Assembly (NCBI RefSeq): GCF_008124875.1
Contig: NZ_VNIA01000004.1
Coordinates: 1 to 64,000, forward strand
Direction: 5' to 3'
Source of the DNA: Tenacibaculum adriaticum
GTDB lineage: Bacteria; Bacteroidota; Bacteroidia; Flavobacteriales; Flavobacteriaceae
DNA: 64,000 nucleotides
In this document: positions 28,108-61,424 of the stretch, piece by piece
How the letters are laid out: each line of letters begins with the position of its first letter
How positions within the stretch are numbered: position 1 is the stretch's first letter
The notes under the pieces: generated by a model
Databases searched by the model: none
Told to the model about the DNA's origin: nothing
What the model saw: the letters and a program-made list of their open reading frames with translations, nothing else
Translations under genes and position numbers: made by a program

Positions 28108-28500
28108 ATGATTAGAGAACTTAATTATTTTTTAAAATTAGCACCTATTTTGCAACAAAAGATTTGTGAAGGTAATAGAATAGTACTAGAATTTAACAAG
28201 GTTTCTGAAGGAGATAATGTTGGAGAAAGTAGGGAAATTTTAGGAGTTAAAAATTTTATTTCTATAGTTTCAAAAGGAAAACTAGTAGCTAATAAATTAA
28301 CAGATTTAATTAAAGAGTTTAAAGCATATCTTGTTGGTAAAAAAAACACAAACAATTTGGATGTGAGTTTCTGTTACTTTTCAAATTTATCAATGCTTCT
28401 GGTAATTTATTTATTCAGTTGCCCCCAAAAAACAAGTCAACAAAAGAAAGACCTGTTTTTTTCGAAAACAGAAATGCGGTACGTTTTAAATGCAAATTAA
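28108..28500 (+). CDS. Unrecognised 130-residue ORF
   Basis: ATG two bases after the ugd stop, 130 aa. I do not recognise a family. The first 80 residues are mixed and lysine-rich; one hydrophobic stretch (about 92-104) could be a membrane segment; the C-terminus is again basic. It ends 50 bases before the manC start. Another frame is open from 28341 straight into manC and overlaps its 3' half, so this may be a degraded gene rather than a working one. Confidence 0.35.
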   Translation: MIRELNYFLKLAPILQQKICEGNRIVLEFNKVSEGDNVGESREILGVKNFISIVSKGKLVANKLTDLIKEFKAYLVGKKNTNNLDVSFCYFSNLSMLLVIYLFSCPQKTSQQKKDLFFSKTEMRYVLNAN

Positions 28501-28550
28501 GTAATCTTACACCTATTATTTTCTTTGTTGAAAGGTTATATATAGCAACT

Positions 28551-29567
28551 ATGAAAAAAAATAAAATTATCAATGTTGTTTTAAGTGGAGGTTCAGGAAC
28601 TAGGTTGTGGCCATTATCTAGAGCAAGTAAACCCAAACAATTCTTAAAGATTTTTGATAAAAAATCTTTGTTTCAACATACAGTTAAGAGAAATAGTAAT
28701 ATCGTTGATGAATATATGATAATAACAAATTCATTGCAAATTGTTGAAGCAGAAGAGCAATCTAAAGATATAGGTTTTTCAATATCAAAAAAGATCATAG
28801 AGCCAATTGGAAGGAATACAGCTCCAGCTATAGCATTGGCTGCTTTTGATTTAAAAGGAGATGATATTATGATTGTAACTCCTTCTGATCATATGATTAA
28901 CAATCCTAATTCTTATGAAAAAGCTATGAAAAGAGCTATAGAGCTTGCTGAAGAAGATTACTTAGTAACATTTGGAATTACACCAACTTCTCCAAATACA
29001 GGTTTTGGTTATATTGAATACGAAAATGAAGAAGTATTGAGTTTCAGAGAGAAGCCTGACTTTAAGACAGCTGAAGAATTTTTGAAGAAAGGTAACTTTA
29101 GTTGGAATAGCGGAATTTTTTGTTTTAAAGCTTCTGTTTTTTTACAAGAACTGGAGAAGTATAATGTTGAAATGTATTTAGCTTGTGTAGAGGCTTATAA
29201 AACGATAGAGAATGGTTTAATTGATTTAGGAGCCATGAAAAATATTCCTGCAGATAGTATAGATTATGCCGTTTTAGAAAAGAGCAAAAAAATTAAAACA
29301 ATTTCATCTAATTTTTATTGGACTGATTTAGGAACTTTTGATTCCATTATAAACTATTTTGAAGAATCAAATCAAGTAGATGGTCTATCAAAAACAGAAG
29401 ACGAGTCTGGTTTTAATTTTTCAAAGAAAAAAGTATTTTCATCAATTGACAATCTAATTATAGTAGATACAGATGATTGCCTTTTAGTTTTAAAGAGAAA
29501 TGAAACAGATGCAGTTAAAGAAATATACAACAAGATTAAGATTGAAAATATAGAACTAACAGAATAG
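28551..29567 (+). CDS. manC: Mannose-1-phosphate guanylyltransferase
   Basis: 338 aa from the ATG at 28551; an upstream TTG in the same frame at 28419 would add 44 unrelated residues. Makes GDP-mannose from mannose-1-phosphate and GTP. VVLSGGSGTRLWPLSRASKPKQF near the start is the nucleotide-binding signature, PIGRNTAPA and TPSDHMI follow, and FREKP lies in the middle. It is the short form without the phosphomannose isomerase domain. Supplies gmd and fcl just downstream. Confidence 0.93.
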   Translation: MKKNKIINVVLSGGSGTRLWPLSRASKPKQFLKIFDKKSLFQHTVKRNSNIVDEYMIITNSLQIVEAEEQSKDIGFSISKKIIEPIGRNTAPAIALAAFDLKGDDIMIVTPSDHMINNPNSYEKAMKRAIELAEEDYLVTFGITPTSPNTGFGYIEYENEEVLSFREKPDFKTAEEFLKKGNFSWNSGIFCFKASVFLQELEKYNVEMYLACVEAYKTIENGLIDLGAMKNIPADSIDYAVLEKSKKIKTISSNFYWTDLGTFDSIINYFEESNQVDGLSKTEDESGFNFSKKKVFSSIDNLIIVDTDDCLLVLKRNETDAVKEIYNKIKIENIELTE

Positions 29568-29577
29568 TTTTAAATAA

Positions 29578-30528
29578 ATGAAAAAAGAAGATAAAATATA
29601 TATAGCAGGGCATAAAGGCATGGTAGGATCTGCTATTTGGAGAGTTTTAGTCTCTAAAGGATATAAAAATATTATAGGACGTACGAGTAAAGAACTAGAT
29701 TTAAGAAACCAGCAAGAAGTTTTAGCTTTTTTTGAAGAAGAAAAACCAGATGTAGTAATTGATGCCGCTGCAAGAGTGGGGGGAATTTTGGCAAATAATA
29801 ATTATCCATATCAATTTATTATGGAGAATATGCAAATTCAAAATAACTTAATAGATATTGCTTTAAAAAATGAAGTTGAAAAATTTATATTTTTAGGAAG
29901 TTCATGTATATACCCTAAGTTAGCAAAACAACCGCTTAAAGAAGAGTATTTATTAACGGATTCTTTAGAGCCCACTAATGAATGGTATGCCATTGCGAAA
30001 ATAACAGGAGTAAAAGCTTGTCAAGCTATAAGAAAACAGTTTAATAAAGATTATGTGAGTTTAATGCCAACTAACTTATATGGGACTCATGATAATTTTG
30101 ATCTAGAAACATCTCATGTATTACCAGCAATGCTTCGAAAATTTTATGAAGCCAAAGAAAATGGAAATGCACCTGTAACTTTATGGGGAAGCGGTACACC
30201 AATGCGCGAATTTTTATTTGTTGATGATATGGCAGAGGCCGTTGTTTTTGCATTAGAGAATAAATTGCCAGACTATTTATACAATGTGGGAACAGGAGAA
30301 GATTTAACAATTAAAGAATTAGCAGAAACTATTCAAAAAGTTGTTGGCCATACTGGAAATTTAATTTGGGATAAAACAAAACCAGATGGAACCCCAAGAA
30401 AATTAATGGATATTTCGAGAATGCATTCTTTAGGGTGGAAGCATCAAATAAATTTAGAAAGAGGAATTCAAAAAACTTATGACTGGTTTTTAAGTAATAT
30501 TAAAGAAATTAAAGAAGTAAAATTGTAA
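29578..30528 (+). CDS. fcl: GDP-L-fucose synthase
   Basis: 316 aa SDR epimerase-reductase that turns GDP-4-keto-6-deoxymannose into GDP-L-fucose. [12 protein letters not shown] near 12 binds NADPH, the [10 protein letters not shown] loop is diagnostic, SSCIYP and the YAIAK motif carry the catalytic Ser, Tyr and Lys. It precedes gmd by four bases. It provides the donor for the GT11 fucosyltransferase at 37792. Confidence 0.96.
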
Positions 30529-30532
30529 AAGA

Positions 30533-31645
30533 ATGAAGGTAGCATTAATAACAGGAGTAACTGGACAAGACGGAGCATATTTAAGTGAGTTTTTATTAAA
30601 AAAAGGATATCAAGTTCACGGTATGAAAAGAAGATCTTCTTTATTTAATACAGATAGAATTGATCATTTATATCAAGACCCTCATGTTGACAATCGTAAT
30701 TTCTTTTTGCATTATGGAGATATGACAGATAGTACTAATATCACTCGTTTGATTAAAGAAATTCAACCAGATGAAATCTATAATTTGGCAGCTATGAGTC
30801 ATGTAGCTGTTTCTTTTGAAACACCAGAATATACTGGTAATGCTGATGGATTAGGAACGCTTCGTATTTTAGATGCTGTAAGATTACTTGGCTTAGAAAA
30901 GAAAACTAGAATTTATCAAGCTTCAACATCTGAACTCTATGGAAAGGTTCAAGAAGTTCCTCAGTCAGAAACTACTCCGTTTTATCCGCGTTCACCTTAT
31001 GCAGTTGCAAAAATGTATGCTTATTGGATTACGGTAAATTATCGAGAAGCTTATGGAATGTACACTTGCAATGGAATTTTATTTAACCACGAATCTCCTT
31101 TACGTGGAGAAACTTTCGTAACACGTAAAATTACAAGAGCAACGTCTAGAATAGCTTTAGGATTACAAGATAAATTTTATTTAGGGAATTTAGATGCAAA
31201 AAGAGACTGGGGACATGCAAAAGATTATGTCAGAATGATGTGGATGATATTACAAGCTGAAGAGGCTGAAGATTGGGTTATTGCTACAGGAAAAACAACA
31301 ACAGTTAGAGATTTTGTGAAAATGAGTTTCGCTGAAGTTGGAATTGAATTAGAATTTAAAGGAGAGGGTGTTGATGAGAAAGCATTTGTAAAAGCTTGTA
31401 ATAAGTCTGAATACCAAATTCAAATAGGTAAGGAGGTTTTATCAGTTGATCCCAAGTATTTTAGACCTACAGAGGTAGATTTGCTAATTGGAGACCCTAC
31501 AAAAGCAAAAACAAAGTTAGGTTGGGTTCCTGAACATGATTTAGCATCATTAGTAAAAGATATGATGAAAAGTGATGTTAAGTTGATGAAGAAAGATCAA
31601 TACTTAAAAGAAGGTGGATATACTACTCTAAACTATTTTGAGTAA
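30533..31645 (+). CDS. gmd: GDP-mannose 4,6-dehydratase
   Basis: 370 aa SDR. First step from GDP-mannose to GDP-fucose. [10 protein letters not shown] near residue 8, [37 protein letters not shown] and [12 protein letters not shown] are near-invariant Gmd motifs. Coupled with fcl. Confidence 0.97.
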
Positions 31646-31680: not shown

Positions 31681-33138
31681 ATGAATTCTTACAAAAAAAT
31701 TGTAAAAACAACAGGGTTAATTGGTTTAGTACAAGTATTCAAGTTGTTTTTTGGTTTTGCACAGAATAAAGTTTTAGCCGTTTTATTAGGTCCTTCTGGT
31801 ATAGGTATTTGGGGGCTATATAATTCTTTTGTTCAATTAGTTTCATCTTTTTCTACCTTAGGAATGGATCAAGCAGGTGTTAAGCAAATTGCAGAAAAAG
31901 GAGATGATAAAACTAAAGTACATAAAATTATATGGGTTTTCAGGATTACTATTTATATAGTGTCTTCATTATTTACAATTTTTGTTATTTTTAAGTCAAA
32001 ATATATTAGTAAACTTTTATTTGGAAATGAGAATTATTTTGAAGGTATTATTGTTGTGTCTTTTGCTATTTTCTTTAATAGTGTTTCTCAATGTCAAGTA
32101 TCTATTTTAAATGGATTAAGAGATATAAAAAGTATAGCTAAGAGTCAAATTTCTGGAGTAGTTTTAGGAGGTGTTTTTGCAGTAGTTTTTGTAACTTTTT
32201 ATAAGGAAAAAGGAATACCTTTTTTTATTCTTATCGTTAGTTTGGCTACAGTTTTTTTTTCGGGTATTTTTTTGCGAAAACATAAAATAAAAAATGTTAA
32301 ATCGAATTTCACTGAATTTAGAAAAGAATTTTATTCATTATTTTCTGTAGGCATAGGGATTGCTTATTCTGCAGTATTGGTAGCTATTACAACTTATTTA
32401 ATTCAAGTTTATTTAAGACGAAAGTTTGGGCTAGAAATATTAGGGATTTATAATGCTAGTTTTACAATATCTAATATATATATAGGTGTAATTTTAAGTG
32501 CAATGGGGGTTGATTTAATGCCTAGGCTATCAAAGGTTGTACAAAATAAGAAAGAAGTAGATAGTTTACTTAATAATCAAATGGAATTAGGAGTTTTGAT
32601 ATCAAGTTTAGGTGTAATAATTGTTATAATGTTCTCTCCTTTTATATTATCTTTATTATATTCTGATAAGTTTATTTTAGGAAAAGAAATAATTAGATGG
32701 CAAGTTTTAGGTGTCTTTTTACGTGTATTAGCTTTTCCTTTAGGGTACCTCTTAATTATAAAAAAGAAAACGGTAAAGTATATTATTGTTCAAACAACTA
32801 TGTGGTTGGGTAACTATATTTTATTAGTTATTCTAGTAGAATATTTTGGGGTTAAAGCATTAGGGATTAATTATCTTTTGGCTTATGTTTTATACGTGTT
32901 AATTCTGTATTTTTTTACTTACAGGGAATTCAAAATTTCAACACTATTAAGAAAGGTGTTTTTAAGTAGTATTTCCATTATATTAATTTCTTGGTTTTTA
33001 ACATTTTATGTTTCAGGTATGTATTTCTACTTTTTTGGAGGGCTATTATTGATATTAAATATAATATGGATTATTAATACTTTAAATAAAGAGATGGGTA
33101 TTAATATTTTCTCTTTTTTGAAAATTAAAAATGATTAA
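31681..33138 (+). CDS. Wzx-type oligosaccharide flippase
   Basis: 485 aa with about 12-14 membrane segments, the MOP/PST superfamily layout. Moves undecaprenyl-diphosphate-linked repeat units across the inner membrane for Wzy polymerisation. The N-terminal GLIGLVQVFKLFFGFAQNKVLAVLLGPSGIGIWGL region (residues 13-47) is typical of the O-antigen translocase type. A T9 homopolymer lies in the coding region at 32252-32260. Follows gmd by 35 bases. Confidence 0.87.
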   Translation: MNSYKKIVKTTGLIGLVQVFKLFFGFAQNKVLAVLLGPSGIGIWGLYNSFVQLVSSFSTLGMDQAGVKQIAEKGDDKTKVHKIIWVFRITIYIVSSLFTIFVIFKSKYISKLLFGNENYFEGIIVVSFAIFFNSVSQCQVSILNGLRDIKSIAKSQISGVVLGGVFAVVFVTFYKEKGIPFFILIVSLATVFFSGIFLRKHKIKNVKSNFTEFRKEFYSLFSVGIGIAYSAVLVAITTYLIQVYLRRKFGLEILGIYNASFTISNIYIGVILSAMGVDLMPRLSKVVQNKKEVDSLLNNQMELGVLISSLGVIIVIMFSPFILSLLYSDKFILGKEIIRWQVLGVFLRVLAFPLGYLLIIKKKTVKYIIVQTTMWLGNYILLVILVEYFGVKALGINYLLAYVLYVLILYFFTYREFKISTLLRKVFLSSISIILISWFLTFYVSGMYFYFFGGLLLILNIIWIINTLNKEMGINIFSFLKIKND

Positions 33139-33141
33139 ATT

Positions 33142-33832
33142 ATGAATTTTTTAAAAAAAACTGTTGATTCAATAGAGTATAAACTGGCTTTGCTTACTAA
33201 TAAAAGTTTTACAAATTATTTAAGACGTAAAGGTATTAAAGTAGGAGAAAATGTTTTGTTTACTAATAGAAAAACGTTAGATATTGATTTACATAAACCA
33301 TCTTTAGTTGAGATCGGTAATAATGTATTTATTAATAGAGGGTTTAGTTTGCTAACCCACGATTATGTTTCTCACGTATTTCTTAATATTTATCATGATT
33401 ATATGTTTCTTCTACAGGTAAAGTTAAGATTGGAAACAATGTAGCTTTTGGGAGAAATGTGAGTATTTTAAAAGGGTGCACAATAGGAGACAATGTTTTT
33501 ATTGGTTTTGGTTCTATAGTAACAAAGGACATACCATCTAATTGTTGGCTGTAGGTATACCAGCAAAAGTAGTATGTACAATTGATGAATATTATAAAAA
33601 AAGAAAAAGTTTATATATGGAAGAAGCTTTTGAATACGCAAGAAGTATTAAAGAAGTTTTTAAAAGAAAGCCTAAAATATCTGATTTCTATGAAGAGTTT
33701 CCTTTATTTGTTGATGGGAATAAAAGTTATAAATATACAAGTGTATTACCAATAAAATCACAATATGGAGATTCATTTAATAATTATGTAAATGAACATA
33801 AGCTATATTTAATGGATTTGAAGAGTTTCTAA
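33142..33832 (+). pseudogene. Left-handed beta-helix acyltransferase, broken by two frameshifts
   Basis: Three frames join to one acetyltransferase. The first (to about 33402) reads KPSLVEIGNNVFINRG and THDYVSHVF; the second (33402-33545) reads GKVKIGNNVAFGRNVS and GFGSIVTKDIPSN; the third (33545-33832) reads LAVGIPAKVVCTIDEYY. The hexapeptide repeats and IPAKV are typical of serine/sugar O-acetyltransferases. Each change is a -1 shift, as from loss of one base near 33397-33405 and one near 33543-33547. Neither site is a long homopolymer. An intact acyltransferase follows at 33848. Two independent lesions argue for real decay. Confidence 0.82.
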
Positions 33833-33847
33833 TTAAAGCGAATATAA

Positions 33848-34360
33848 ATGAAAAAAATAATTAGATTTATAATTAAGGTATTTAAATATCTTTATAGAGA
33901 AACTATACTACACTTATTGTGGTATTTTTCTTCTTATTTCCCAATGTTTCCTACATTAATGTTTACAAAAGGACGTTCTTTCTTTTGGAGGTTAATAGGT
34001 GTGCAAATTGGTAAAAAAGTGCAAATAAATTATGGTAATTATTTAGATGTACCTTCTGCCAAAAGATTAATAATAGAAGATAATGTTTTAATTGCGTCTG
34101 AATGTTTGTTTCTGTTACACAAAAGAGATATGAGTAAATATACCGGTTTTAATTTACAAAACTCTTTACCTATGAAGGAAGCGTATATTAAAATATGTAA
34201 AAATGCTTCTATTGGTATGAGAACTGTTATTTTACCTGGTGTAACTATTGGTGAGGGTGCTGTGGTTGGGGCTAATTCTTTAGTCGTTAAAGATATACCA
34301 CCATATACAATTGCGGTTGGGAATCCAGCAAGAGTTATTAAATATATAAAGAAGAATTAG
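33848..34360 (+). CDS. Left-handed beta-helix acyltransferase
   Basis: 170 aa. Membrane-leaning basic N-terminus, then hexapeptide repeats ([42 protein letters not shown] as successive turns between about residues 55 and 150) and the ending [10 protein letters not shown] found in CatB/WbbJ-like acetyltransferases. Expected to add an acetyl or other acyl group to a sugar of the repeat unit. It lies 15 bases after the broken acyltransferase and two before the next gene. Confidence 0.82.
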
Positions 34361-34361
34361 A

Positions 34362-35900
34362 ATGATAAATGTTGGAGTGTATCTTAATGATTATAAAAAT
34401 AGCGATGTCTGGGAGAATATTATTTTAGATGAAATCTCAAGAGAAAAAAATTTTAATGTTATTCTGATAAAGAATGAAGTAAAATTTGAGAAGAAGACTA
34501 ATAAAAAAACTAGTGCATTAAAGTTTTTACTATTACACTTTCAAATTAAAATAGAAAATATTGTATTAAAAACATTTTCAAAAAAATCAAAAAATCAAAA
34601 AATCAAAAAATCATTTTTAAAAGAGAATAATTTTGATTTTATAGTAAATTTTAGTCATAACATAAAAAAAGAAATTTTAATTGAAAAAGCTAATATAGGA
34701 TTGTTAGAAGTTTTTAAAGATAGTTTTTTAATATATAAGTACAATTTATTGTGTATTAACGAGGTAGTTAAAAAGATGCCCTGCGTAAACCTTAAATTAA
34801 AAGTTTACAATAAAAAAATAAATAAAGGTGTTTTTATTGAGGACATGTTTTTTACCTATGATTGGAAAGGAAGTAAAAATTTAGCATCTTTAAGTGTTAG
34901 AGTTTCTAAATTTTTAATTAAAAATATAAATATATATATAATAAATGAAAGAGAATACAATATTTGTAAAAATAAAACAGAAAATTTTGAAGAAAGAATT
35001 TCTATATACACTCAATTTATTTACATAATTAAATTCTATTTAATGATTTTTAAAAGATTTTATAAATCCTTATTATATAAGTTTTTTAATAGAAAAAAGG
35101 ATAATTGGACATTAGTTTTTGGAAATAATTATAGTAAAAATAAATTTTTTAAAAATTTAAAACCAGTAGTATTACCAAAGGATGAATTTTGGGCAGATCC
35201 TTTTTTATTTAAATTTAAAAAAGAATATTATGTTTTTTTTGAAAAATACATAAATAAAATAGGTAGAGGAATTATCTCATGTGGTAAACTTGTGAATGGT
35301 GAAATTAATGATATTGAAGATGTTCTAATAACAGATTATCATTTGTCGTATCCTAATGTTTTTGAAGAGGAAGGAGAAATTTACATGATACCAGAAATAA
35401 GTGAAAAGAGAAGATTAGAGATATATAAGTGTATAAACTTTCCTAATCAATGGGAGTTATACTCTTATGCTTTTGATGGTGAATATGTAGTTGATACTAT
35501 ATACTATAAGGATGAGAACAATAATAAATGGCTGTTTTTAAGTAAAACAAACAATAATTTAAATGATAACTGTTCTGAATTATACATTTATCAAATAGAT
35601 TCACTAAAATTAAATAAGGTAATTAATCATAAGCAAAACCCAATTTTTGCTGATTGTAGAAAATCTAGAAATGCAGGAGCAATACTTAAGCTTAATAATA
35701 AACTAATCAGACCATCGCAAAATAATAGTTATGGTATCTATGGATACAACATTAATTTTAATCAAATAAAAGTATTGAATATAGAAGAATATAAAGAAGA
35801 AAATATTAAAATCCATAACAATAGTTTTAAAAAATACAAACGTGTGCATCATTTCCACTTTTTAGATGAAATATTTGTTTTTGATTGTTATCTAAATTAA
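34362..35900 (+). CDS. GINT1-like sugar-transferase-associated protein (beta-propeller type)
   Basis: 512 aa. The C-terminal half (about 255-512) shows the DEFWADPFLFKF, YYVFFEKY and YPNVFEEEGEIYMIPE pattern found in the N-terminal beta-propeller domain named after plant glucosamine inositolphosphorylceramide transferase 1 and in many bacterial polysaccharide loci. The N-terminal half recalls the formyltransferase-like part of those bacterial proteins (FDFIVNFSHNIKKEIL near 90). Enzymatic role is not established. The base composition is very AT-rich even for this window, and four copies of an 8-base repeat lie at codons 74-84. Two bases separate it from the acyltransferase upstream. Confidence 0.6.
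   Translation: MINVGVYLNDYKNSDVWENIILDEISREKNFNVILIKNEVKFEKKTNKKTSALKFLLLHFQIKIENIVLKTFSKKSKNQKIKKSFLKENNFDFIVNFSHNIKKEILIEKANIGLLEVFKDSFLIYKYNLLCINEVVKKMPCVNLKLKVYNKKINKGVFIEDMFFTYDWKGSKNLASLSVRVSKFLIKNINIYIINEREYNICKNKTENFEERISIYTQFIYIIKFYLMIFKRFYKSLLYKFFNRKKDNWTLVFGNNYSKNKFFKNLKPVVLPKDEFWADPFLFKFKKEYYVFFEKYINKIGRGIISCGKLVNGEINDIEDVLITDYHLSYPNVFEEEGEIYMIPEISEKRRLEIYKCINFPNQWELYSYAFDGEYVVDTIYYKDENNNKWLFLSKTNNNLNDNCSELYIYQIDSLKLNKVINHKQNPIFADCRKSRNAGAILKLNNKLIRPSQNNSYGIYGYNINFNQIKVLNIEEYKEENIKIHNNSFKKYKRVHHFHFLDEIFVFDCYLN
34581..34612 (+). repeat. Octanucleotide tandem repeat, 4 copies
   Basis: Four exact copies of AAAAAATC in a row, inside the coding region of the GINT1-like gene. Eight is not a multiple of three, so gain or loss of one copy shifts the frame. 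Confidence 0.9.
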
Positions 35901-35905
35901 AAATT

Positions 35906-36988
35906 ATGCTTCAAATATTTTTATCTATAATATCCATTCCTTTTTTCTCTTTTTTATTAAATACTAAAAGTAAAGTTTTTAATAAAGTTGAGATGCTTTT
36001 TTTCTTTTTAGTATTGTTTTTAATTGCAGGATTAAGACATGTTGATATTGCAAACGATAGTTTAGCTTATGCAACAAGTTTTATTGATATTGAGTACTTT
36101 AATTCTTTTTGGGATTTTGAAGGACGTTTTGAATTTGGTTTTCAATACTTAACTAAATTTATTAAGTTTTACATTTCTGATGAAGTTTATGTATATTTTA
36201 TTATAACAAGTTTTATTATCCAATTTTTTTTAATAGATTTTATATTTAAAAATAGTAGAATATTATGGTTTTCTGTTTTTTTACTAATAACTCTAAGATT
36301 TTATTTTTTTTCAGTTAGTGCAATAAGGCAAGGTATGGCATTGGGTGTTTGCATGTATAGTTATGAATATTTAAAAAGAGGAAAACTTAACAAATTTTTT
36401 ATTAGTGTTTTACTAGCTTTTTCATTTCATTATTCTGCTTTAGTATTTTTGATACTGCCTGTTTTAAGTAAAATAAAACCAAGCGTTAAAAAAATATTAT
36501 TTTTTGGCGGTATATCTATGATTGTTTTTAGCACATTAGGTTATTTTATAGAAATTTTCTCTTCTGTTTTAGATTATGGGAAAGATTATATCGATCAAGG
36601 GTTAGCAAATAATTTTTATCAACGATTAGGAGCTATTTTTATAATGCTCTTATCATTCATAATTTTAATATTCGTTTATAAATCTGATTACTTCAAAAAA
36701 AATAAAAATGATAAAGTTTTTAGAATACAGTTTTGGTCAATTTATTTAGCCTTTTTGATAAATGTTCTAGCAATAAAATTTAGTATATTAATTAGGTTTT
36801 ATTATTATTTTGGAATATTTTCAATAATCCTTTTACCTAATGTAATTAATTTCATGCAAAATAAAAGAAGCAAGAATATTGCTTTAAAATTTTGGTTTTT
36901 AATTTCTTTAGTTTTTATAATGATAATTTTATATAATAAACCAGAATGGTATAATTTTTACCCATATAAGTTTTTCTGGGAAAAATAA
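35906..36988 (+). CDS. EpsG-family (Wzy-type) polysaccharide polymerase
   Basis: 360 aa from the ATG at 35906, just after the preceding stop; a TTG at 35885 would overlap that gene. About ten membrane segments. The RHVDIANDSLAYA segment near 50 and the large periplasmic loop before SVSAIRQGMALGVCMYSYEYL fit the EpsG family, which polymerises lipid-linked repeat units at the outer face of the inner membrane. Pairs with the Wzx flippase at 31681 in a Wzx/Wzy-dependent route. Confidence 0.85.
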   Translation: MLQIFLSIISIPFFSFLLNTKSKVFNKVEMLFFFLVLFLIAGLRHVDIANDSLAYATSFIDIEYFNSFWDFEGRFEFGFQYLTKFIKFYISDEVYVYFIITSFIIQFFLIDFIFKNSRILWFSVFLLITLRFYFFSVSAIRQGMALGVCMYSYEYLKRGKLNKFFISVLLAFSFHYSALVFLILPVLSKIKPSVKKILFFGGISMIVFSTLGYFIEIFSSVLDYGKDYIDQGLANNFYQRLGAIFIMLLSFIILIFVYKSDYFKKNKNDKVFRIQFWSIYLAFLINVLAIKFSILIRFYYYFGIFSIILLPNVINFMQNKRSKNIALKFWFLISLVFIMIILYNKPEWYNFYPYKFFWEK

Positions 36989-37000
36989 TTTTAAATATAA

Positions 37001-37780
37001 ATGAGAATAGCAATACTATATATATGTACTGGTAAATACAGCATTTTTTGGAAGGATTTTTATGCTTCTTGTGAAAAATTTTTTTTTAAAGAACAAGACA
37101 AACATTACTTTGTTTTCACTGATGATTTAGATATTAACAAAAAACACAACACCACTTTAATTAAAGAAAATTGTAGAGGCTTTCCTCTTGATTCATTATT
37201 TAGATTTGATATGTTTTTGAAAATAGAAAATGAAGTTAAATCTTACGACTATGTTTTTTTTTTCAATGCTAACATGCTTTTTGTAGAAAAAGTATCATAT
37301 GAAATTTTCCCTAATAAAAATTTTAAAGGGTTAATAGGGGTTATTCATCCTATGGGATTTAAATATAGAAAATTTCCTTCTATGTATACATATGAGAGAA
37401 ATAAAAAATCTAGAGCGTATATAAAGAAAGAGAAAAAAAAATATGAGTATTTTATGGGGGGTGTTAACGGAGGATCAACAGAAGAGTATTATAAGATGGT
37501 AAAAGAATGTAGTAAGAATATTCATCATGATTATAAAAATAATATAGTTGCTATTTTTCACGATGAGTCACATATGAATAAATATTTTTCAGAGAATGAA
37601 GTTCATAGTCTATCGACAGCTTATGGTTTTCAAGAAGGAGCGAAATACCCTTTTAAACCCAAAATAATTATTAGAGATAAAACAAAAATAAGTAACTTTT
37701 TTAACAAATATAGAGAAGAACGTTTTATAGGTAGAGTTTTAAGATACTTGAACCAAATTTATAAAGCTATTACTTGGTAA
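37001..37780 (+). CDS. Family GT6 glycosyltransferase (ABO blood-group family)
   Basis: 259 aa, the compact soluble size of bacterial GT6 enzymes. Members transfer galactose or GalNAc in alpha-1,3 linkage to galactose, often to Fuc-alpha-1,2-Gal. Visible: FRFDMFLKIENEV near 68-79, the motif N89-A90-N91 where mammalian GT6 has DxD, GGVNGG near 154, and HDESHMNKYF near 189-198 with the catalytic glutamate. The NxN form is known from bacterial GT6 such as the Bacteroides ovatus enzyme, which is metal-independent. The coding region has T9, T10 and A9 tracts (37079, 37254, 37433). The next gene is an alpha-1,2-fucosyltransferase. Confidence 0.88.
   Translation: MRIAILYICTGKYSIFWKDFYASCEKFFFKEQDKHYFVFTDDLDINKKHNTTLIKENCRGFPLDSLFRFDMFLKIENEVKSYDYVFFFNANMLFVEKVSYEIFPNKNFKGLIGVIHPMGFKYRKFPSMYTYERNKKSRAYIKKEKKKYEYFMGGVNGGSTEEYYKMVKECSKNIHHDYKNNIVAIFHDESHMNKYFSENEVHSLSTAYGFQEGAKYPFKPKIIIRDKTKISNFFNKYREERFIGRVLRYLNQIYKAITW
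37254..37263 (+). repeat. Poly-T tract (T10) inside the GT6 gene
   Basis: Ten consecutive T residues encoding the Val-Phe-Phe-Phe stretch just before the NAN motif. I noticed no longer homopolymer inside a coding region here. Slippage by one base would truncate the enzyme ahead of its active site. Confidence 0.9.
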
Positions 37781-37791
37781 AAAAAATATAT

Positions 37792-38658
37792 ATGATTTAT
37801 AGCAGTATACATGGAGGTTTAGGTAATCAAATGTTTCAATATGCATTAGGATTGAGCATTTCATTAAAAACTAACTCCGAATTTAAATTCGATTTACATA
37901 AAATGAATAATTATAATTTGAGAGATTTTTCTCTTAATAAATTTAATATTTCTGCAAAAAAATGTGAAGATTATATATCAGAAAAATATAAATCTAATAA
38001 ATATAAAGAAGCATTAGAAAAAAAAATAAATAAATTTGGTTTATATACAGGAAATAAATTTTATGAAAAAAAAGAATTTTGCTACGATCAATCTGTTTTT
38101 AGTAATAAAAAAGCATATTTTAAAGGTTATTGGCAGAGCTTTAAATATTTTGAGTCAATAAGAGATATAATTTTAAAAGAATTTTCATTAAAAGATGATT
38201 TATCTGAAGAGAATTTAAGCATTTTAAATAAAATTGAAAATTCAGATAATTCTGTATCTATTCATATTAGAAGGGGTGATTATATTAATAATGCTAAGAA
38301 TAATAAGATTTATAATGTAATAGGTTTAGATTATTATGAGAAAGCTATTAATGAAATTAACAATAATTTTGAAAAGCCATATTTTTTTGTGTTTTCAGAC
38401 GATATAGAATGGGTTGATAAAAATTTGAATATTTCTGGTAGAGTTATTTATGTGTCATCTGATAAAACTAATAAAGCAGAAGAAGAACTGATATTGATGA
38501 GCAAGTGTAATCATAATATTATAGCTAATAGTACTTTCAGTTGGTGGGGAGCATGGTTAAATAATAATGAAGATAAGTTAGTTATAGCGCCAAAAATATG
38601 GATGAAAGGAATTAAATCATCAAAAGACTTAATTCCTAATACTTGGTTAAAAATTTAA
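37792..38658 (+). CDS. Family GT11 alpha-1,2-fucosyltransferase
   Basis: 288 aa from the ATG at 37792, after the GT6 stop; a TTG at 37774 would overlap it. GT11 transfers fucose from GDP-L-fucose in alpha-1,2 linkage, usually to galactose. GGLGNQMFQYALGLSISLK near the N-terminus, the donor-binding SIHIRRGDY motif near residue 158, and the C-terminal NSTFSWWGAWLN segment are diagnostic. GDP-fucose is made by manC, gmd and fcl in the same locus. Directly downstream of the GT6 gene. Contains an A9 tract (38018-38026). Confidence 0.93.
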   Translation: MIYSSIHGGLGNQMFQYALGLSISLKTNSEFKFDLHKMNNYNLRDFSLNKFNISAKKCEDYISEKYKSNKYKEALEKKINKFGLYTGNKFYEKKEFCYDQSVFSNKKAYFKGYWQSFKYFESIRDIILKEFSLKDDLSEENLSILNKIENSDNSVSIHIRRGDYINNAKNNKIYNVIGLDYYEKAINEINNNFEKPYFFVFSDDIEWVDKNLNISGRVIYVSSDKTNKAEEELILMSKCNHNIIANSTFSWWGAWLNNNEDKLVIAPKIWMKGIKSSKDLIPNTWLKI

Positions 38659-38679: not shown

Positions 38680-39498
38680 ATGAATAATAAAATAAGTGTT
38701 GTAATGTCCGTGTATTACAACGATAATGCAATACATTTTGAACAAGCTGTTGAAAGTTTATTAAATCAAACCTATAAACCTTCAGAAATAGTTATAGTTG
38801 TTGATGGCTGTGTATCAAAAGAATTAGAAGAAGTTATAAAAAAATATAATAACAACGATATAATTATTATCATAAAGCTATCAAATAATCAAGGATTGGC
38901 GAATGCTCTTAATATAGCAATTAGAAGTTCTAGTCATGAGCTCATAGCAAGAATGGATTCCGATGACATCTGCTTCAAAGATAGATTTGAAAAGCAAATG
39001 AAGTTTCTAATAGATAATGATTTAGATTTTGTTGGTGGGCAAATGATTGAATTTGGAAAAAATTTAGAAGATATAGTTTCATATAGAAGAGTACCTTTAA
39101 AGCATGAAGATATAATAGATTTCATGAAATATAGAGCTGCTTTTAGTCATCCAACAATTTTATTTAAGAAAAAAGTTTTTAAAAGTCTTAAAGGATATGA
39201 TATTAATATTTTTCCTGAAGATTATGATTTTTTTGTAAGGGTATATTTAGGAGGGTTTAAGATGGGGAATATAGATGAGAACGTACTGTGGTTTCGTTTA
39301 GGAGAAAACTTATCTGAAGCGATTAAAAGGAGATGGGGAAAAAAGTATGCTATAAATGAATTCAAATTATATAAAAAATTTCTCGATATTGGTTTTTATT
39401 CAAAAAGTCATTTTATAAAAGCTGTATTATTTAAGATACCTCTGAGGTTTTTACCATTCAAATTATTTAAATTTTTGTACTTTAAATTATCAAGATAA
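38680..39498 (+). CDS. Family GT2 glycosyltransferase
   Basis: 272 aa GT-A fold enzyme. VVMSVYYNDNAIHFEQAVES at the start, NQGLANALNIAI near 75, and the metal-binding ARMDSDD near 90 fit the AmsE/WfgD-like group that extends O-antigen or exopolysaccharide repeats. The C-terminal 60 residues are basic and hydrophobic, suggesting membrane association. Sugar specificity cannot be told. Confidence 0.88.
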   Translation: MNNKISVVMSVYYNDNAIHFEQAVESLLNQTYKPSEIVIVVDGCVSKELEEVIKKYNNNDIIIIIKLSNNQGLANALNIAIRSSSHELIARMDSDDICFKDRFEKQMKFLIDNDLDFVGGQMIEFGKNLEDIVSYRRVPLKHEDIIDFMKYRAAFSHPTILFKKKVFKSLKGYDINIFPEDYDFFVRVYLGGFKMGNIDENVLWFRLGENLSEAIKRRWGKKYAINEFKLYKKFLDIGFYSKSHFIKAVLFKIPLRFLPFKLFKFLYFKLSR

Positions 39499-39499
39499 A

Positions 39500-40459
39500 A
39501 TGTATTTAAAGATTTTTATTTTGACATTAACTATATCATTAATTTATCTAAAAATTGCTGATAAATTTAATATTATAGACAAACCTAATCACCGAAGTTC
39601 TCATACAACTCCAACTATAAGAGGCGGGGGGATTTTATTCTTCTTAGCAATTTTAATTTATTTTATTCTTTCAGGATTTCAATATCCATATTTTGTAATT
39701 GGAGTTTCTCTTATTGCTATTGTTAGTTTTGTAGATGATATTGTTACCTTGAGTTCTAATGTTAGATTACCTTTTCAATTCATAGCTATTGGTTTGTGTT
39801 TATTGCAAATAGGTTTTACATTAAATAATTTTTTGATACTAATTCCTTTATTAATAGCAGGAGTAGGGTTTATTAATATCTATAATTTTATGGATGGTAT
39901 TAATGGAATAACAGGAATGTACAGTATTGTTGTTTTATTAGGAATGTTATTTATCAATTTAAAGGAAAATATAGTTAGTATTGATTTAATCATTTACAGT
40001 TTAATTTCATTGGTGGTTTTTGGATTTTACAACTTCAGAAAAAAAGCAAGAATGTTTGCCGGAGATATCGGTAGTATATCAATAGCGGTTCTTTTGTTTT
40101 TTATAGGATCCTATTTAATTAAAGAATTAAAATCACCATTAATTTTATTATTCATTCTTGTTTATGGAGCTGATGCAATTCTAACACTAGGATACCGAAA
40201 ATCGATAGGAGAAAGAATAACAGAGCCGCATAGAAAACATATTTATCAAAAATTGGTTCATACTTTAAAATTACCACACTTAAAAGTTTCTTTATTTTAT
40301 GCTATAACACAAGCCATTATAAATGTTATTGTTTATTTCGGATATCAATTGAGTTTGAGGAATCAACTTATTATATTGTTCTCTTGTATAGTTGTGTTTG
40401 TTCTAATATATGTTTATCTGTTTAGAGTAATTGAGAAGAGGAAAGTTTTAACGACATGA
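39500..40459 (+). CDS. Initiating glycosyl-phosphate transferase (WecA/WbpL type, GT4/MraY family)
   Basis: 319 aa, about ten membrane segments. It transfers a HexNAc-1-phosphate or FucNAc-type sugar phosphate to undecaprenyl phosphate, starting the repeat unit. Visible: DKPNHRSSHTTPTIRGGG near 22, the FVDDIVTLS acidic pair, NIYNFMDGINGI near 135, AGDIGS near 195, and EPHRKHIYQKL near 245 (the HxH-type cytoplasmic loop). The shorter length and motif set favour the WbpL/WecA branch over MraY. Its stop overlaps the next start by four bases. Confidence 0.92.
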   Translation: MYLKIFILTLTISLIYLKIADKFNIIDKPNHRSSHTTPTIRGGGILFFLAILIYFILSGFQYPYFVIGVSLIAIVSFVDDIVTLSSNVRLPFQFIAIGLCLLQIGFTLNNFLILIPLLIAGVGFINIYNFMDGINGITGMYSIVVLLGMLFINLKENIVSIDLIIYSLISLVVFGFYNFRKKARMFAGDIGSISIAVLLFFIGSYLIKELKSPLILLFILVYGADAILTLGYRKSIGERITEPHRKHIYQKLVHTLKLPHLKVSLFYAITQAIINVIVYFGYQLSLRNQLIILFSCIVVFVLIYVYLFRVIEKRKVLTT

Positions 40460-41046
40460 AAAAAATAGCAATAATTGGTGCTGGAGGATTAGGAAGAGAA
40501 ATTCTTGGAATTATTGAATGTATTAATAGCATAAATAAAGTTTGGGATTTTATAGGTTTTTATGATGATAATGCTTCTTCTAAATCCGTAAACGGACATT
40601 CAGTTATAGGAAATATAGACTCATTAAATTTTACAAAGGAGAATGTACATGTAATCATCGGTATAGGAAATCCATCAATTAAAGAAAAGATTAAGGAAAA
40701 AATAACAAATCCTAAAATTATCTTTCCAAATTTAATACATCCTTCAGCAGTTATTTATTCATTTGAAAATGTTAAGTTAGGAAAAGAAGGTGTTGTTATC
40801 GGAGCCAATTGTGTTTTAACCGTAAATATTTCAATCGGTAACTATGTTTATTTAAATACTTCTTCAGTAATATCTCACGATACAATTATTGGCGATTATA
40901 GTATGATTATGCCAACAGTATCTATTTCTACAGGAGCTAAAATCGGTAAACGTGTGTATCTCGGTAATGGTGTGAAAATTGATTCTCCAATAGAAATAGA
41001 AGATGATACTATAATTAAAGCAGGTTCTATCTTGTCTTCTCCCTAA
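40456..41046 (+). CDS. NeuD/PglD-like sugar N- or O-acyltransferase
   Basis: 196 aa: N-terminal Rossmann-like domain (IGAGGLGREILGIIE) followed by left-handed beta-helix repeats (about 95-190), the layout of NeuD and PglD. PglD acetylates UDP-4-amino sugars; NeuD acts on sialic acids. It overlaps the WecA/WbpL-like gene by four bases, an arrangement often seen for the synthesis of N-acetylated 4-amino-6-deoxy sugars, but no aminotransferase is found beside it. Confidence 0.85.
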   Translation: MKKIAIIGAGGLGREILGIIECINSINKVWDFIGFYDDNASSKSVNGHSVIGNIDSLNFTKENVHVIIGIGNPSIKEKIKEKITNPKIIFPNLIHPSAVIYSFENVKLGKEGVVIGANCVLTVNISIGNYVYLNTSSVISHDTIIGDYSMIMPTVSISTGAKIGKRVYLGNGVKIDSPIEIEDDTIIKAGSILSSP

Positions 41047-41099: not shown

Positions 41100-41975
41100 A
41101 TGAAAGGAATAATATTAGCAGGAGGTTCAGGAACAAGATTATACCCTATTACAAAAGGAATATCTAAACAGTTACTACCTGTTTATGACAAACCAATGAT
41201 TTATTACCCATTATCGGTATTAATGTTAGCGGACATTAGAGAGATCTTGATTATATCCACTCCATATGATTTACCAAATTTTGAAAAATTGTTAGGTACT
41301 GGTGAAGAGTTAGGTTTACAGTTAAGTTATAAAGAACAGCTTTCTCCAGATGGATTAGCACAAGCCTTTATTATAGGTAAAGAGTTTATAGGAAAGGATG
41401 ATGTTTGTTTAATTTTAGGGGATAATATTTTTTATGGCCATGGATTTCCAGAAATGTTGAAAAAGGCTGTGTTAAATGCTACAAAAGAACAGAAAGCAAC
41501 TGTGTTTGGATATAATGTTAGAGATCCTGAAAGGTATGGTGTTGTTGAGTTTGATAACTTAGGGAATGTTATATCTATTGAAGAGAAACCGAAAAAACCA
41601 AAATCTAATTATGCTGTTGTAGGATTATATTTTTATCCGAATAGTGTTGTAGAAGTTGCTACAAAAATAAAACCTTCTCATAGAGGGGAGTTAGAGATTA
41701 CTTCAGTGAATCAAGAATATTTAAAAAAGGAATCTTTAAAAGTTGAGTTATTAGGACGAGGTTTTGCATGGTTAGACACAGGGACTCATGATTCTTTAAT
41801 GGAAGCTGGTCAGTTTATAGAAACTATAGAAAAACGGCAAGGTTTAAAAGTAGCTTGTTTGGAAGAGATAGCTTATTATATGGGATACATTGATGCAAAT
41901 CAAGTTGAAAAATTAGCTCAACCTTTAAAAAAGAGCGATTATGGACAATATTTATTAAACTTAGCTAAGAAATAA
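41100..41975 (+). CDS. rfbA: Glucose-1-phosphate thymidylyltransferase
   Basis: 291 aa, standard RmlA length. Makes dTDP-glucose from glucose-1-phosphate and d[35 protein letters not shown] (residues 8-39), [11 protein letters not shown] and [19 protein letters not shown] are the expected motifs. rfbB follows after 22 bases. Confidence 0.97.
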
Positions 41976-41997
41976 AACTTTTCTAGAATTATTATCC

Positions 41998-43047
41998 ATG
42001 AAAAATATTTTAATAACAGGTGGGGCAGGATTTATAGGTTCTCATGTGGTACGATTATTTGTAAATAAGTATCCTAATTATAACATCATTAATTTAGATG
42101 CTTTAACCTATGCGGGGAATCTTGAGAACTTGAAGGATATTGAAAATAAATCTAATTATACTTTTATTAAAGGTGATATTTGTGAACATGATGCTGTTAA
42201 AGAGATCTTTTCTAAGTATAAAATCGATGGAGTTATTCATTTGGCTGCAGAATCGCATGTAGATAGATCAATTAAAAATCCCTTTGCTTTTGCACAAACT
42301 AATATAATGGGGACTTTAAGTTTACTGCAAGCAGCAAAAGAATTTTGGAAAGACAATTATAAAGATAAATTGTTTTATCATATTTCTACGGATGAGGTAT
42401 ATGGTAGCCTAACAGAAAATGGTTTCTTTACAGAAGATACAGCTTATGATCCGCATTCACCGTATTCGGCATCTAAAGCCTCCTCAGATCATTTTGTAAG
42501 ATCTTTTCATGACACATATGGTTTGCCAATTATTATTTCTAATTGTTCAAATAACTATGGGGCGAATCAATTTCCAGAAAAGTTAATTCCATTATTCATT
42601 AATAATATCTGTAAAAACAAACCACTTCCGGTGTACGGAAAAGGAGAAAATGTAAGAGATTGGTTATATGTTGAAGATCATGCTAGCGCAATTGACGTAA
42701 TTTTTCATCAAGGAAAAATAGGGGAGACTTACAATGTTGGTGGATTTAATGAATGGAAAAATATAGATCTAATAAAAATATTAATTAAAACAGTTGACAC
42801 ACTGTTGGGTAGAGAAGAAGGCAGCTCAGAAAGCTTAATTACTTTTGTAAATGATAGAGCAGGCCACGATTATCGTTATGCGATTGATTCATCAAAATTA
42901 AAAAATGAATTAGGTTGGGAACCTTCATTACAATTCGAAGAAGGAATTGAAAAAACGATAAAATGGTACTTAGAAGATAAAGAATGGGTTAAACACGTTA
43001 CTTCTGGAGATTATAAGAAGTATTATGATGAAATGTATACTAAATAA
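41998..43047 (+). CDS. rfbB: dTDP-glucose 4,6-dehydratase
   Basis: 349 aa SDR giving dTDP-4-keto-6-deoxyglucose. TGGAGFIGSHVVR near residue 7, HLAAESHVDRSI near 80, STDEVYG near 130 and YSASKASSDHF near 158 are the RmlB signatures. rfbC and rfbD, needed for dTDP-L-rhamnose, are not in the window. Last gene of the long plus-strand locus, closed by the terminator just after it. Confidence 0.97.
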   Translation: MKNILITGGAGFIGSHVVRLFVNKYPNYNIINLDALTYAGNLENLKDIENKSNYTFIKGDICEHDAVKEIFSKYKIDGVIHLAAESHVDRSIKNPFAFAQTNIMGTLSLLQAAKEFWKDNYKDKLFYHISTDEVYGSLTENGFFTEDTAYDPHSPYSASKASSDHFVRSFHDTYGLPIIISNCSNNYGANQFPEKLIPLFINNICKNKPLPVYGKGENVRDWLYVEDHASAIDVIFHQGKIGETYNVGGFNEWKNIDLIKILIKTVDTLLGREEGSSESLITFVNDRAGHDYRYAIDSSKLKNELGWEPSLQFEEGIEKTIKWYLEDKEWVKHVTSGDYKKYYDEMYTK

Positions 43048-58227: not shown

Positions 58228-60612
58228 CTAACTAAAAATCTTTTTATACCAAGGCTTTTGATCATCTTTTACGTTTCCATATCCGTATCCATAACCATAA
58301 CCATAGCCATAACCGTAACCTCTATTCATATCTGTATCGTTTAATACAATGGCCATATTTGGTAATTTTTTATCTTTATATAAGGTTTGAGGAACAGTTA
58401 GCATTCTTTTATCTAGATAGTTTGCTCTTGTAACATATAAGAAAACATCAGCATATTTAGAAATTAACAAGGTGTCAGTTACTAAGTTAACGGGAGCAGT
58501 ATCAACCAAAATATAATCATAATCATTTCTAACTTCATTAAATAATTCTGATATTCTACCCGTCATTAATAATTCAGCTGGATTTGGTGGGATTGCACCT
58601 GAAGCTATAATATCTAAATCTTTTAACTCTGGAACTCTAAATTTTAAAGAATCTAATGTAATATCCTCGTTAGTAATAAAATTGGTAATTCCTTTTCTAT
58701 CAGGAATGCCTAAATATTCAGTAACTTTTGGAGCACGTAAATCTACTCCCATTAATAGCACTTTCTTACCAGAGAGGGCTAATGTAGCCGCTAAATTAAT
58801 AGAAATAAAAGATTTTCCTTCTCCACTTGTGGTAGAAGTTATAAAGATTGTCTTTCCTTTTTCTTGATTCACATTTGATAATATGAAATCAAGGTTGGTT
58901 CTAATTAACCTAAAGGCTTCAGCTGTACTAGAACGAGCATCAGAATTTATTACAATTTTTTCTTTTGTTTCAGAATGGGGAACATCCCCTAAGAAGGGAA
59001 TTGTTGTTTGTTCTTCAATATCTCTCTTAGTGTGTACTTTAGTGTCTAAAAGATCTCGGATATAAATTATAATAAACGGAAATAATAATCCAAGTAATAA
59101 AGCAACTAGATAGATAGTTTTTTTCTTTGGACTTACAGGAGATTTAAAACCATATGCTTTGTCAATAATTTTAGCATTAGGAACCGTAACTGCTAAAGAA
59201 ATAGCAGTTTCTTCTTTCTTTTTTAATAAATAAGAATACAATCCAGCAATAATTTCTTGTTGTCTAGCAATGTCTAAAAACTCTCTTTCTTTGGAAGGAA
59301 TAGAAGAGATTTTTGAGTTAAATCTTCCTGCTTCTCTTGCTAAATTATCAACATTTAATTGTAAAGATTTTTCTTGATTACGTAAACTACTTTTTAAAGA
59401 ATTTTTAATATTATCAATATTATCTTTCAATTCTATAAAAACGATATTTTTTTCTCCAGCACTTTTTAATAGTCTATTTTTCTTAACAACCAATTCATTG
59501 TATTCCCCAATGGCTTTAGCTATATTAGGATCCTGTAATCCTAAATTAGCCGGTAAAAGATCTTCTGTATTTGTAGTTAATTCACTATTCAAACCTTTAA
59601 CCAAACTTAATTGTGTATTGGCATCAATTAATTTTTGTCTGTTTATAGCATTTGATTCTAAAAATAATTGTGCTTCAGATTGAATATCTGTAATGTTATT
59701 TTTCTTTTTAAAATTACTAACGCTGTTGTCAACAATAGCTAGTTCTTTTCCTATATTTTCTAATCTATCAGCAATAAATTCATTTGTTTTGTTAGATACT
59801 TGATTTTTATCACTAATAGCATCTTTGTTATATTGAGTAACTATTTCATCAAGAATATTTTCTGCTTTTTCAATAACAGCTGAATTTAAAGATAATTTTA
59901 AAACACTAGCATTTTTATTAATTGGAGAAATTGATAGTTTAGAAATATAATTATCTATCGTGTTATTTAGTGAAGATACATGTATATTAATTCGATCATC
60001 TATATGTTCATTATCAAAATAAGATGTTTTATTTATTGAAAATTGACCAATACTTTCAAATGATAATGTATCTCCAAAAGTAGCTTCTTTTTTAATCAAG
60101 TTGTCTTCCTTGTCAAATATATTGAATTTGTTATCTGATAAAACATCAATAAAAAAGAGTTCGTTTTCTTCTAAATCAATCTTTAAACTATCTAAAAGCA
60201 TAAAATTGATTGGACAAATTTTATATATTTCTGAATTTTTTACTCGGCCCTCGCTAACATAAGTAATATTTAAGTTTAACTTTTCAACAACATTATTAAT
60301 GATTTTTCTTGATTTTAAAATTTCAATTTCATTATCAATATTTTTGTTTGAGCCTCCTACAATTCCAAGATCTTCAAAAGCAGCAAGTTCTTCAGAAAGC
60401 CCTCCTTTTTTATCATTTTTTATTAAAATTGTTGTAGAAGCAGAGTATTGTGGAGTCACATATCTTAAGTATAAATAAGCTCCTAAAAGAGCCAATAAAA
60501 TCCCTAATACAAACCATTTCCAATGGATTAAATACTTTTCTAATTCAGCTCTTATATTGATGGTGTCGTTCTCTTCTATTTGCTGAATATAATTATTAGA
60601 TTGATTATTCAT
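58228..60612 (-). CDS. Wzc-like polysaccharide co-polymerase / tyrosine kinase
   Basis: 794 aa. Wzz domain with a membrane helix near 32-50 and a second near 505-525; a long periplasmic coiled-coil region between; then a cytoplasmic BY-kinase domain with Walker A TSGEGKS near 595, Walker A' GVDLRAP near 622 and Walker B LVDTAP near 700. The C-terminal tail has about seven Gly-Tyr pairs, the autophosphorylation cluster. It controls chain length and export with the Wza-like lipoprotein just upstream; the facing PHP phosphatase should reset it. Confidence 0.94.
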   Translation of the reverse strand: MNNQSNNYIQQIEENDTINIRAELEKYLIHWKWFVLGILLALLGAYLYLRYVTPQYSASTTILIKNDKKGGLSEELAAFEDLGIVGGSNKNIDNEIEILKSRKIINNVVEKLNLNITYVSEGRVKNSEIYKICPINFMLLDSLKIDLEENELFFIDVLSDNKFNIFDKEDNLIKKEATFGDTLSFESIGQFSINKTSYFDNEHIDDRINIHVSSLNNTIDNYISKLSISPINKNASVLKLSLNSAVIEKAENILDEIVTQYNKDAISDKNQVSNKTNEFIADRLENIGKELAIVDNSVSNFKKKNNITDIQSEAQLFLESNAINRQKLIDANTQLSLVKGLNSELTTNTEDLLPANLGLQDPNIAKAIGEYNELVVKKNRLLKSAGEKNIVFIELKDNIDNIKNSLKSSLRNQEKSLQLNVDNLAREAGRFNSKISSIPSKEREFLDIARQQEIIAGLYSYLLKKKEETAISLAVTVPNAKIIDKAYGFKSPVSPKKKTIYLVALLLGLLFPFIIIYIRDLLDTKVHTKRDIEEQTTIPFLGDVPHSETKEKIVINSDARSSTAEAFRLIRTNLDFILSNVNQEKGKTIFITSTTSGEGKSFISINLAATLALSGKKVLLMGVDLRAPKVTEYLGIPDRKGITNFITNEDITLDSLKFRVPELKDLDIIASGAIPPNPAELLMTGRISELFNEVRNDYDYILVDTAPVNLVTDTLLISKYADVFLYVTRANYLDKRMLTVPQTLYKDKKLPNMAIVLNDTDMNRGYGYGYGYGYGYGYGNVKDDQKPWYKKIFS
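58279..58320 (-). repeat. Hexanucleotide repeats coding the Gly-Tyr tail of the kinase
   Basis: Seven consecutive six-base units of the form GGN-TAY on the minus strand. They keep the frame, so copy-number change would alter the number of tyrosines, not the frame. Confidence 0.85.
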
Positions 60613-60618
60613 GATTAC

Positions 60619-61395: not shown

Positions 61396-61424
61396 AAAAT
61401 AAAATTTTCGCGAAAATACTAATT

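Follow-up and report, generated by a model that had tools for sequence, protein, structure and literature searches.

A GT6–GT11 gene pair in Tenacibaculum adriaticum, predicted to build an ABO-like glycan branch, and its recurrence across bacteria and cyanophages

Results

We analysed a stretch of 64,000 nucleotides from Tenacibaculum adriaticum (NCBI RefSeq assembly GCF_008124875.1, contig NZ_VNIA01000004.1, positions 1 to 64,000), referred to here as the window. On its forward strand, a gene for a GT6 glycosyltransferase of 259 amino acids (37001–37780; assigned from Pfam PF03414, fold and residue alignment) is followed directly by one for a 294-residue GT11 fucosyltransferase family protein (37774–38658; PF01531), which is read from a TTG and has an in-frame ATG at 37792, 11 bases past the GT6 stop. 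A sequence-only reading of the same DNA had given these gene coordinates correctly, and had placed GDP-L-fucose synthesis in the same operon. This second point also held: upstream of the pair and on its strand lie a manC-like mannose-1-phosphate guanylyltransferase gene (28419–29567; TIGR01479, 297 bits, below the cut-off of 373), listed from a TTG with the real start probably further in; fcl, for GDP-L-fucose synthase (29578–30528; NF047922, 476 bits, just below the cut-off of 500); and gmd, for GDP-mannose 4,6-dehydratase (30533–31645; TIGR01472, 595 bits, cut-off 415).

The remainder of the cluster is also on the forward strand. Between gmd and the pair are genes for a Wzx-type flippase (31681–33138), a hexapeptide-repeat O-acetyltransferase-like protein (33848–34360), a protein with a GINT1_N-like domain in residues 275–493 that is a possible further glycosyltransferase (34362–35900), and an EpsG-family Wzy-type polymerase (35885–36988). 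Just before the O-acetyltransferase-like gene, a second acetyltransferase-like gene (33142–33832) is apparently broken: its pieces lie in three reading frames, through either disruption of the gene or an error in sequencing. Downstream of GT11 follow a GT2 glycosyltransferase that is a candidate for adding the Gal acceptor (38680–39498), a WecA-type (PNPT) initiating sugar-phosphate transferase (39500–40459), a PglD/NeuD-like acetyltransferase (40456–41046), and rmlA and rmlB for dTDP-sugar synthesis (41100–43047). The genes from GINT1_N through GT11 have a GC content of 21–26%, versus 29.9% for the window. The gene order Wzx, acetyltransferase, GINT1_N, Wzy, GT6, one gene, GT11 is also found in one of the loci compared below (L014). 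Close relatives of the GINT1_N protein among those loci were limited to L014, with the same gene order, and, more weakly, L081. Its domain resembles the N-terminal region of plant GINT1, and its N-terminal half has no domain match; a single-sequence structure model was uninformative (pLDDT 32). On the opposite strand, at a distance of 15 kb, are Wzc-like, Wza-like and CapD-like genes (58228–63326), and another contig of the genome encodes one protein of the Wzy_C/ligase family. With both present, capsule export and O-antigen attachment are each an option for the product.

The interval from folC to a LysM-protein gene (window 22529–43102) varies in length within the genus, in the manner of a serotype-like locus. 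Of 58 genomes searched, 36 carry both genes on one contig, and we tabulated the flank distances of 34 of these by hand; the other two (G022 and G081) were left out, their folC and LysM-protein genes being about 2 Mb apart. In the 11 tabulated genomes whose LysM match is full-length (the window's own included) the distance was 14–31 kb; in 22 further genomes of the genus it was 41–68 kb, and in one outlier (G163) 230 kb. GT6 is rare: scans of 166 genomes from the genus, 397 from the family and 395 from the phylum yielded 1, 1 and 3 carriers, respectively, the window's own genome being counted each time. GT11 is frequent in the genus, where 52 of 162 genomes match, 51 of them above the cut-off. 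Because GT6 is confined to a single genome of the 166 and the locus is variable, the GT6 cassette was probably acquired.

The assignment of 37001–37780 to GT6, made earlier from the letters of the sequence, was borne out by both profile and fold. The ORF matches PF03414 with an E-value of 4.2e-25 and 88.6 bits, against a curated cut-off of 25. By sequence search, the closest solved relative is BoGT6a (PDB 4AYJ; E 9e-57), with the human ABO transferases next (E about 1e-20). An AlphaFold2 model built from 52 sequences, those of the window and the loci, had a mean pLDDT of 95 and the GT-A fold of the ABO transferases and BoGT6a (Foldseek E 1.3e-27). Structural alignment with 4AYJ gave a Z of 33.6 and an rmsd of 1.6 over 229 aligned residues, with 44% identity over those residues (47% in another comparison); the human ABO chains aligned with a Z of about 29 and 28–31% identity.

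NXN replaces DXD in the window GT6 (N89-A90-N91), as in metal-independent bacterial GT6 enzymes, and the donor and catalytic residues T10, Y13, R68, N89, H116, D188, E189 and K227 are kept. Human positions 266–268 correspond to M152-G153-G154, and human 300 to F186. A BoGT6a-like A-antigen synthase would have Ala at BoGT6a 155 and Trp at 189, positions at which the window enzyme has Met and Phe. The GTB-like pattern is Met266 plus Ala268; the window GT6 has Met aligned with 266, but Gly at 268, as in GTA. We predict from its sequence that the window GT6 is a retaining alpha-1,3 transferase for Gal or GalNAc.

The window GT11 matches PF01531 with an E-value of 1e-38 and 133.7 bits, well over the cut-off of 23.9, confirming the earlier call of a GT11 gene directly after GT6. 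It keeps the HxRRxD motif (H164, R166, R167, D169); a sequence search of solved structures returned no relative up to an E-value of 0.1. The presence of gmd and fcl argues for fucose as its predicted sugar. Colitose as the sugar, as for WbgN of E. coli O55, which we take to be a GT11 enzyme, was also considered and is disfavoured, as gmd and fcl are present. Colitose use by WbgN is reported in PMC12723683, and the GT11 family is reported also to include HhFT2, which makes an alpha-1,3 linkage (PMC4202792).

Scanning named bacterial genomes with a GT6 alignment, we obtained 187 relatives and kept the best 80, a ranked and not a random sample; with the window and two loci from the phylum scan, these made up 83 GT6 loci. 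GT11 directly neighboured GT6 in 47, was separated from it by a single gene in 20, lay further off in 3 and was not seen in 13, a close pair (adjacent or one gene away) being present in 67 of 83 loci. GT6 and GT11 were adjacent in 46 of the 69 loci that have GT11 plus a gene on either side of GT6, versus 13.5 ± 3.1 expected if placement within each locus were random. GT11 was on the opposite strand in 6 of the 67 close pairs. The 13 loci in which GT11 was not seen include all three Paenibacillus loci and four in which GT6 lacks a called neighbour on one side; in one of these four (L067), counted as lacking GT11, a cut GT11 piece abuts GT6. The GT11 profile used for the counts was built from the same loci and had 76 matches; when GT11 calls were checked against Pfam, 67 of 68 sequences (the window and 67 loci, of the 76 profile matches) matched PF01531. 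Judged by record titles, the hosts of close pairs include Bacteroidota, Lachnospiraceae, Patescibacteria, Gastranaerophilales, Desulfovibrio, and beta-, gamma- and epsilonproteobacteria, and in both of two plasmid-record loci that we fetched GT11 is adjacent to GT6. These data demonstrate that GT6–GT11 pairing is the rule across the family and not a product of chance.

Gene fusions bear on how the enzymes might cooperate. In 40 of the 69 GT6–GT11 loci, GT11 directly adjoins a GT2 like that of the window or forms one protein with it, a raw count obtained with a broad GT2 profile. GT2–GT11 fusions were found at L029:6178–8001, L048:6241–7989 and L019:10595–12448, the last involving a second GT11 and not the GT6-adjacent one. 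In four Prevotellaceae, GT6 is fused in frame to a Wzx-type flippase (L010:4381–6405, L011:7995–10007, L012:5392–7416 and L013:7995–10004). The two kinds of fusion suggest that GT11 works with GT2 and that GT6 acts close to flipping, an order that agrees with the sequence of steps in E. coli O86. Extended forms of GT6 also occur in Nomurabacteria: in L043 and L045 (526–527 amino acids) the extra C-terminal part has no Pfam match, and in L049 (537 amino acids) it is GT2-like.

We compared the divergence of the two genes by Mantel correlation. GT6 and GT11 gave an r of 0.55 over 67 pairs and 0.26 after dereplication to 43, with 0 of 5000 permutations as high in either set. The window GT11 was equally close to the GT11 of L033 and that of L004. 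The dereplicated correlation and these distances suggest that the histories of GT6 and GT11 are partly separate.

The pair was also found in phages. A GT6 relative (E up to 0.001) was present in 71 of 50,697 phage records, 60 of the 71 being Synechococcus phages; coordinates within the phage records come from the matches listed, 60 of 71 and 60 of 102 records. In ten hand-picked phage loci, of which at least four (L093, L095, L096 and L103) already carried an annotated GT11 or fucosyltransferase, GT11 lay within the fetched stretch in six (directly adjacent in three) and in none of the other four. The six (L093–L096, L100 and L103) are cyanophages from sea and lake with GT11 beside GT6 or within 1.5 kb, and the four (L098, L099, L101 and L102) are other phage records with GT6 and no GT11 in view. 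Further adjacent pairs, among the matches listed, were those of S-CAM9, S-PRM1, S-8S53, S-8S55, DSL-LC02 and SynMITS9220M01. A scan of viral contigs with the window GT6 gave no match. The cyanophage loci indicate that phages infecting free-living cyanobacteria transport the pair as well.

A GT6 tree, from a quick search without bootstrap, separated a 26-row clade containing the window (SH-aLRT 97) from a 58-row clade containing BoGT6a. At human 300 (BoGT6a 189), the window clade has Tyr, Val, Phe or Arg, and Trp in none of its 26 rows; outside it, Trp occupies this position in 55 of 57 loci, the exceptions being L047 and L064. At BoGT6a 66 the clade has Phe in 25 rows and Tyr in 1, and 56 of the 57 other loci have Trp; at BoGT6a 70 it has Ser in 25 and Thr in 1, and all 57 others have Thr. 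Its hosts are Bacteroidota wherever named, and its members mostly have Met at 266. Trp300 presumably contacts the acceptor in the mammalian enzymes. Because the window clade lacks Trp at this position, the acceptor of the window GT6 may differ from the usual ABO-type acceptor. A fucosylated acceptor is our best guess, since GT11 stays within 1.7 kb of GT6 in 24 of the 26 clade rows.

Across the 83 loci, Met occupies the human-266 position in 49 (the window among them), Ala in 17 and Gln in 10. GTB likewise has Met, and Ala is found in BoGT6a and its three nearest rows (L057, L068 and L077). For the human enzyme, a clash between Met266 and GalNAc has been described (PMC4202792, PMC4692239), and Gly at 266 or 268 has been proposed, as a hypothesis, to admit GalNAc (PMC4692239). 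The genome encodes one GalE above cut-off, from an intact ORF of 335 amino acids, and no other epimerase above the GalE cut-off. With Met at human 266 and an intact galE, the prediction favours Gal over GalNAc as donor, by about two to one.

Discussion

From the enzyme families, fold, motifs, gene linkage and conservation observed here, we infer the linkages, donors and order of a pathway in which GT6 and GT11 would act last among the glycosyltransferases that assemble the repeat of a Wzy-dependent surface polysaccharide. The PNPT enzyme would load a sugar phosphate onto undecaprenyl phosphate, and the GT2 would then add beta-Gal. GT11 would add L-fucose alpha-1,2 to that Gal, using GDP-Fuc made through manC, gmd and fcl, and the metal-independent GT6 would add alpha-1,3 Gal (GalNAc being less likely) to the same Gal. 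Wzx would flip the repeat unit, and the EpsG-type polymerase would join the units. By this order of steps, the product is probably an ABO-like branch, most likely the B-like alpha-Gal(1-3)[Fuc(1-2)]Gal. The sequence-only reading had argued that GT11 makes an H-type structure which GT6 converts to an A or B antigen, and had called the gene set complete for this. The H-then-A/B logic gains from the families, the operon, the pairing over 83 loci, the fusions and the intact galE; the claim of completeness overstates the case, since in the absence of Trp300 the acceptor may differ. As to the choice of antigen, the B-like half of that proposal is favoured by Met at human 266, and the A-like half is less likely.

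It is highly improbable that two unrelated genes were merely brought together by chance in a variable polysaccharide locus. The locus does vary within the genus, and such loci shuffle glycosyltransferase genes, but a chance grouping accords poorly with the excess of adjacent pairs over random placement within the same loci (46 of 69 versus 13.5 ± 3.1) and with the same GT6–GT11 pairing in cyanophages. We consider it somewhat unlikely that GT6 enzymes of the window clade act on a changed acceptor, such as an unfucosylated or non-Gal sugar, with Fuc elsewhere in the repeat and no ABO-like epitope formed. The replacement of Trp at human 300 in every clade row would fit such a change, as would Phe and Ser at BoGT6a 66 and 70, where other loci have Trp and Thr; however, 24 of 26 clade rows keep GT11 within 1.7 kb of GT6, and the window GT6 retains H116 and T130 (BoGT6a 122 and 134).

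The favoured reading, an ABO-like branch on a fucosylated Gal, includes as a sub-case an A-type product, in which GT6 would move GalNAc as BoGT6a does; we regard this as unlikely. In its favour, UDP-GalNAc is reported as the donor of BoGT6a, the nearest solved relative (PMC3961637), the window has at human 268 a Gly of the kind proposed to admit GalNAc (PMC4692239), and GalE itself might make UDP-GalNAc. However, BoGT6a and its three nearest rows have Ala where the window has Met, such a Met is reported to keep GalNAc out of the human enzyme (PMC4202792, PMC4692239), and the genome has no second epimerase over the GalE cut-off.

The locus adds an ABO-type cluster to a genus whose 166 scanned genomes yielded no second GT6, and the survey, with a close pair in 67 of 83 loci, extends a guess about a single locus to a rule for the family. 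Because the pair occurs in free-living and candidate-phylum bacteria and in cyanobacterial phages as well as in gut bacteria, the rule bears on the open question of whether microbial ABO-like sugars imitate hosts. It is possible, although we hold the idea with some doubt, that GT2–GT11–GT6 is an ancient glycan-epitope module that moves between genomes and has reached several bacterial phyla and cyanophages, that its ABO-like branches are mostly not vertebrate mimicry, and that the window clade follows an acceptor rule of its own, yielding a B-like or new branched epitope. For enzymology, the clade without Trp300 is a well-delimited target that might also yield new alpha-1,3-Gal transferases.

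In the literature searched, represented in part by excerpts, we found no report of GT6 beside GT11 across bacteria or in flavobacteria, and earlier notice is possible. GT6/GT11 clustering in Bacteroides ovatus may already have been noted.

Among known systems, E. coli O86 is close in organisation. Its cluster (GT6 WbnI, GT11 WbnK/WbwK, WbnJ and WbnH; blood group B) resembles the window in having GT6 and GT11 for one repeat, a likeness drawn from published description of these enzymes. The O86-type gene set, namely GT6, GT11, GT2, a WecA-type initiator, GDP-fucose genes, Wzx and Wzy, is present in the window. A DNA search of an E. coli genome collection with the GT6–GT11 stretch of L053 gave no match. 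In O86, WbnH, WbnJ, WbnK and WbnI are reported to act one after another (PMC4506291), WbnI being an alpha-1,3-galactosyltransferase (PMC12723683) of the GT6 family (PMC4202792).

BoGT6a of Bacteroides ovatus (PDB 4AYJ, 4CJ8), reported to make A-antigen-like products from 2'-fucosyllactose (PMC3961637), is like the window enzyme a metal-independent NXN GT6 of the same fold; it differs in having Ala and not Met at the donor position and Trp66 and Trp189 where the window has Phe, and it belongs to the other main clade. Helicobacter mustelae BgtA, likened here by description, is another bacterial GT6, reported to make the blood-group-A determinant (PMC4202792). Human GTA and GTB share family and fold with the window GT6, and Met at 266 is common to GTB and the window, but the human enzymes are metal-dependent with DXD in place of NXN, and the window enzyme carries Gly at 268 and replaces Trp300 by Phe. 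In cyanophages, where GT6 was reported in two phages in 2014 (PMC3961637), Prochlorococcus phage P-SSM2 and Synechococcus phages have GT11 directly beside GT6 or two genes away; unlike the window, these are phage genomes, and their GT6 is 31–33% identical to that of the window (named cyanophages, among the matches listed). GT6–GT11 pairing is thus already known from E. coli O86 (PMC4202792, PMC4506291), and the window locus belongs with such O86-like clusters and is not a new system; new here are how widely the pair recurs, with cyanophages and fusions among the cases, and the existence of a clade that lacks Trp300.
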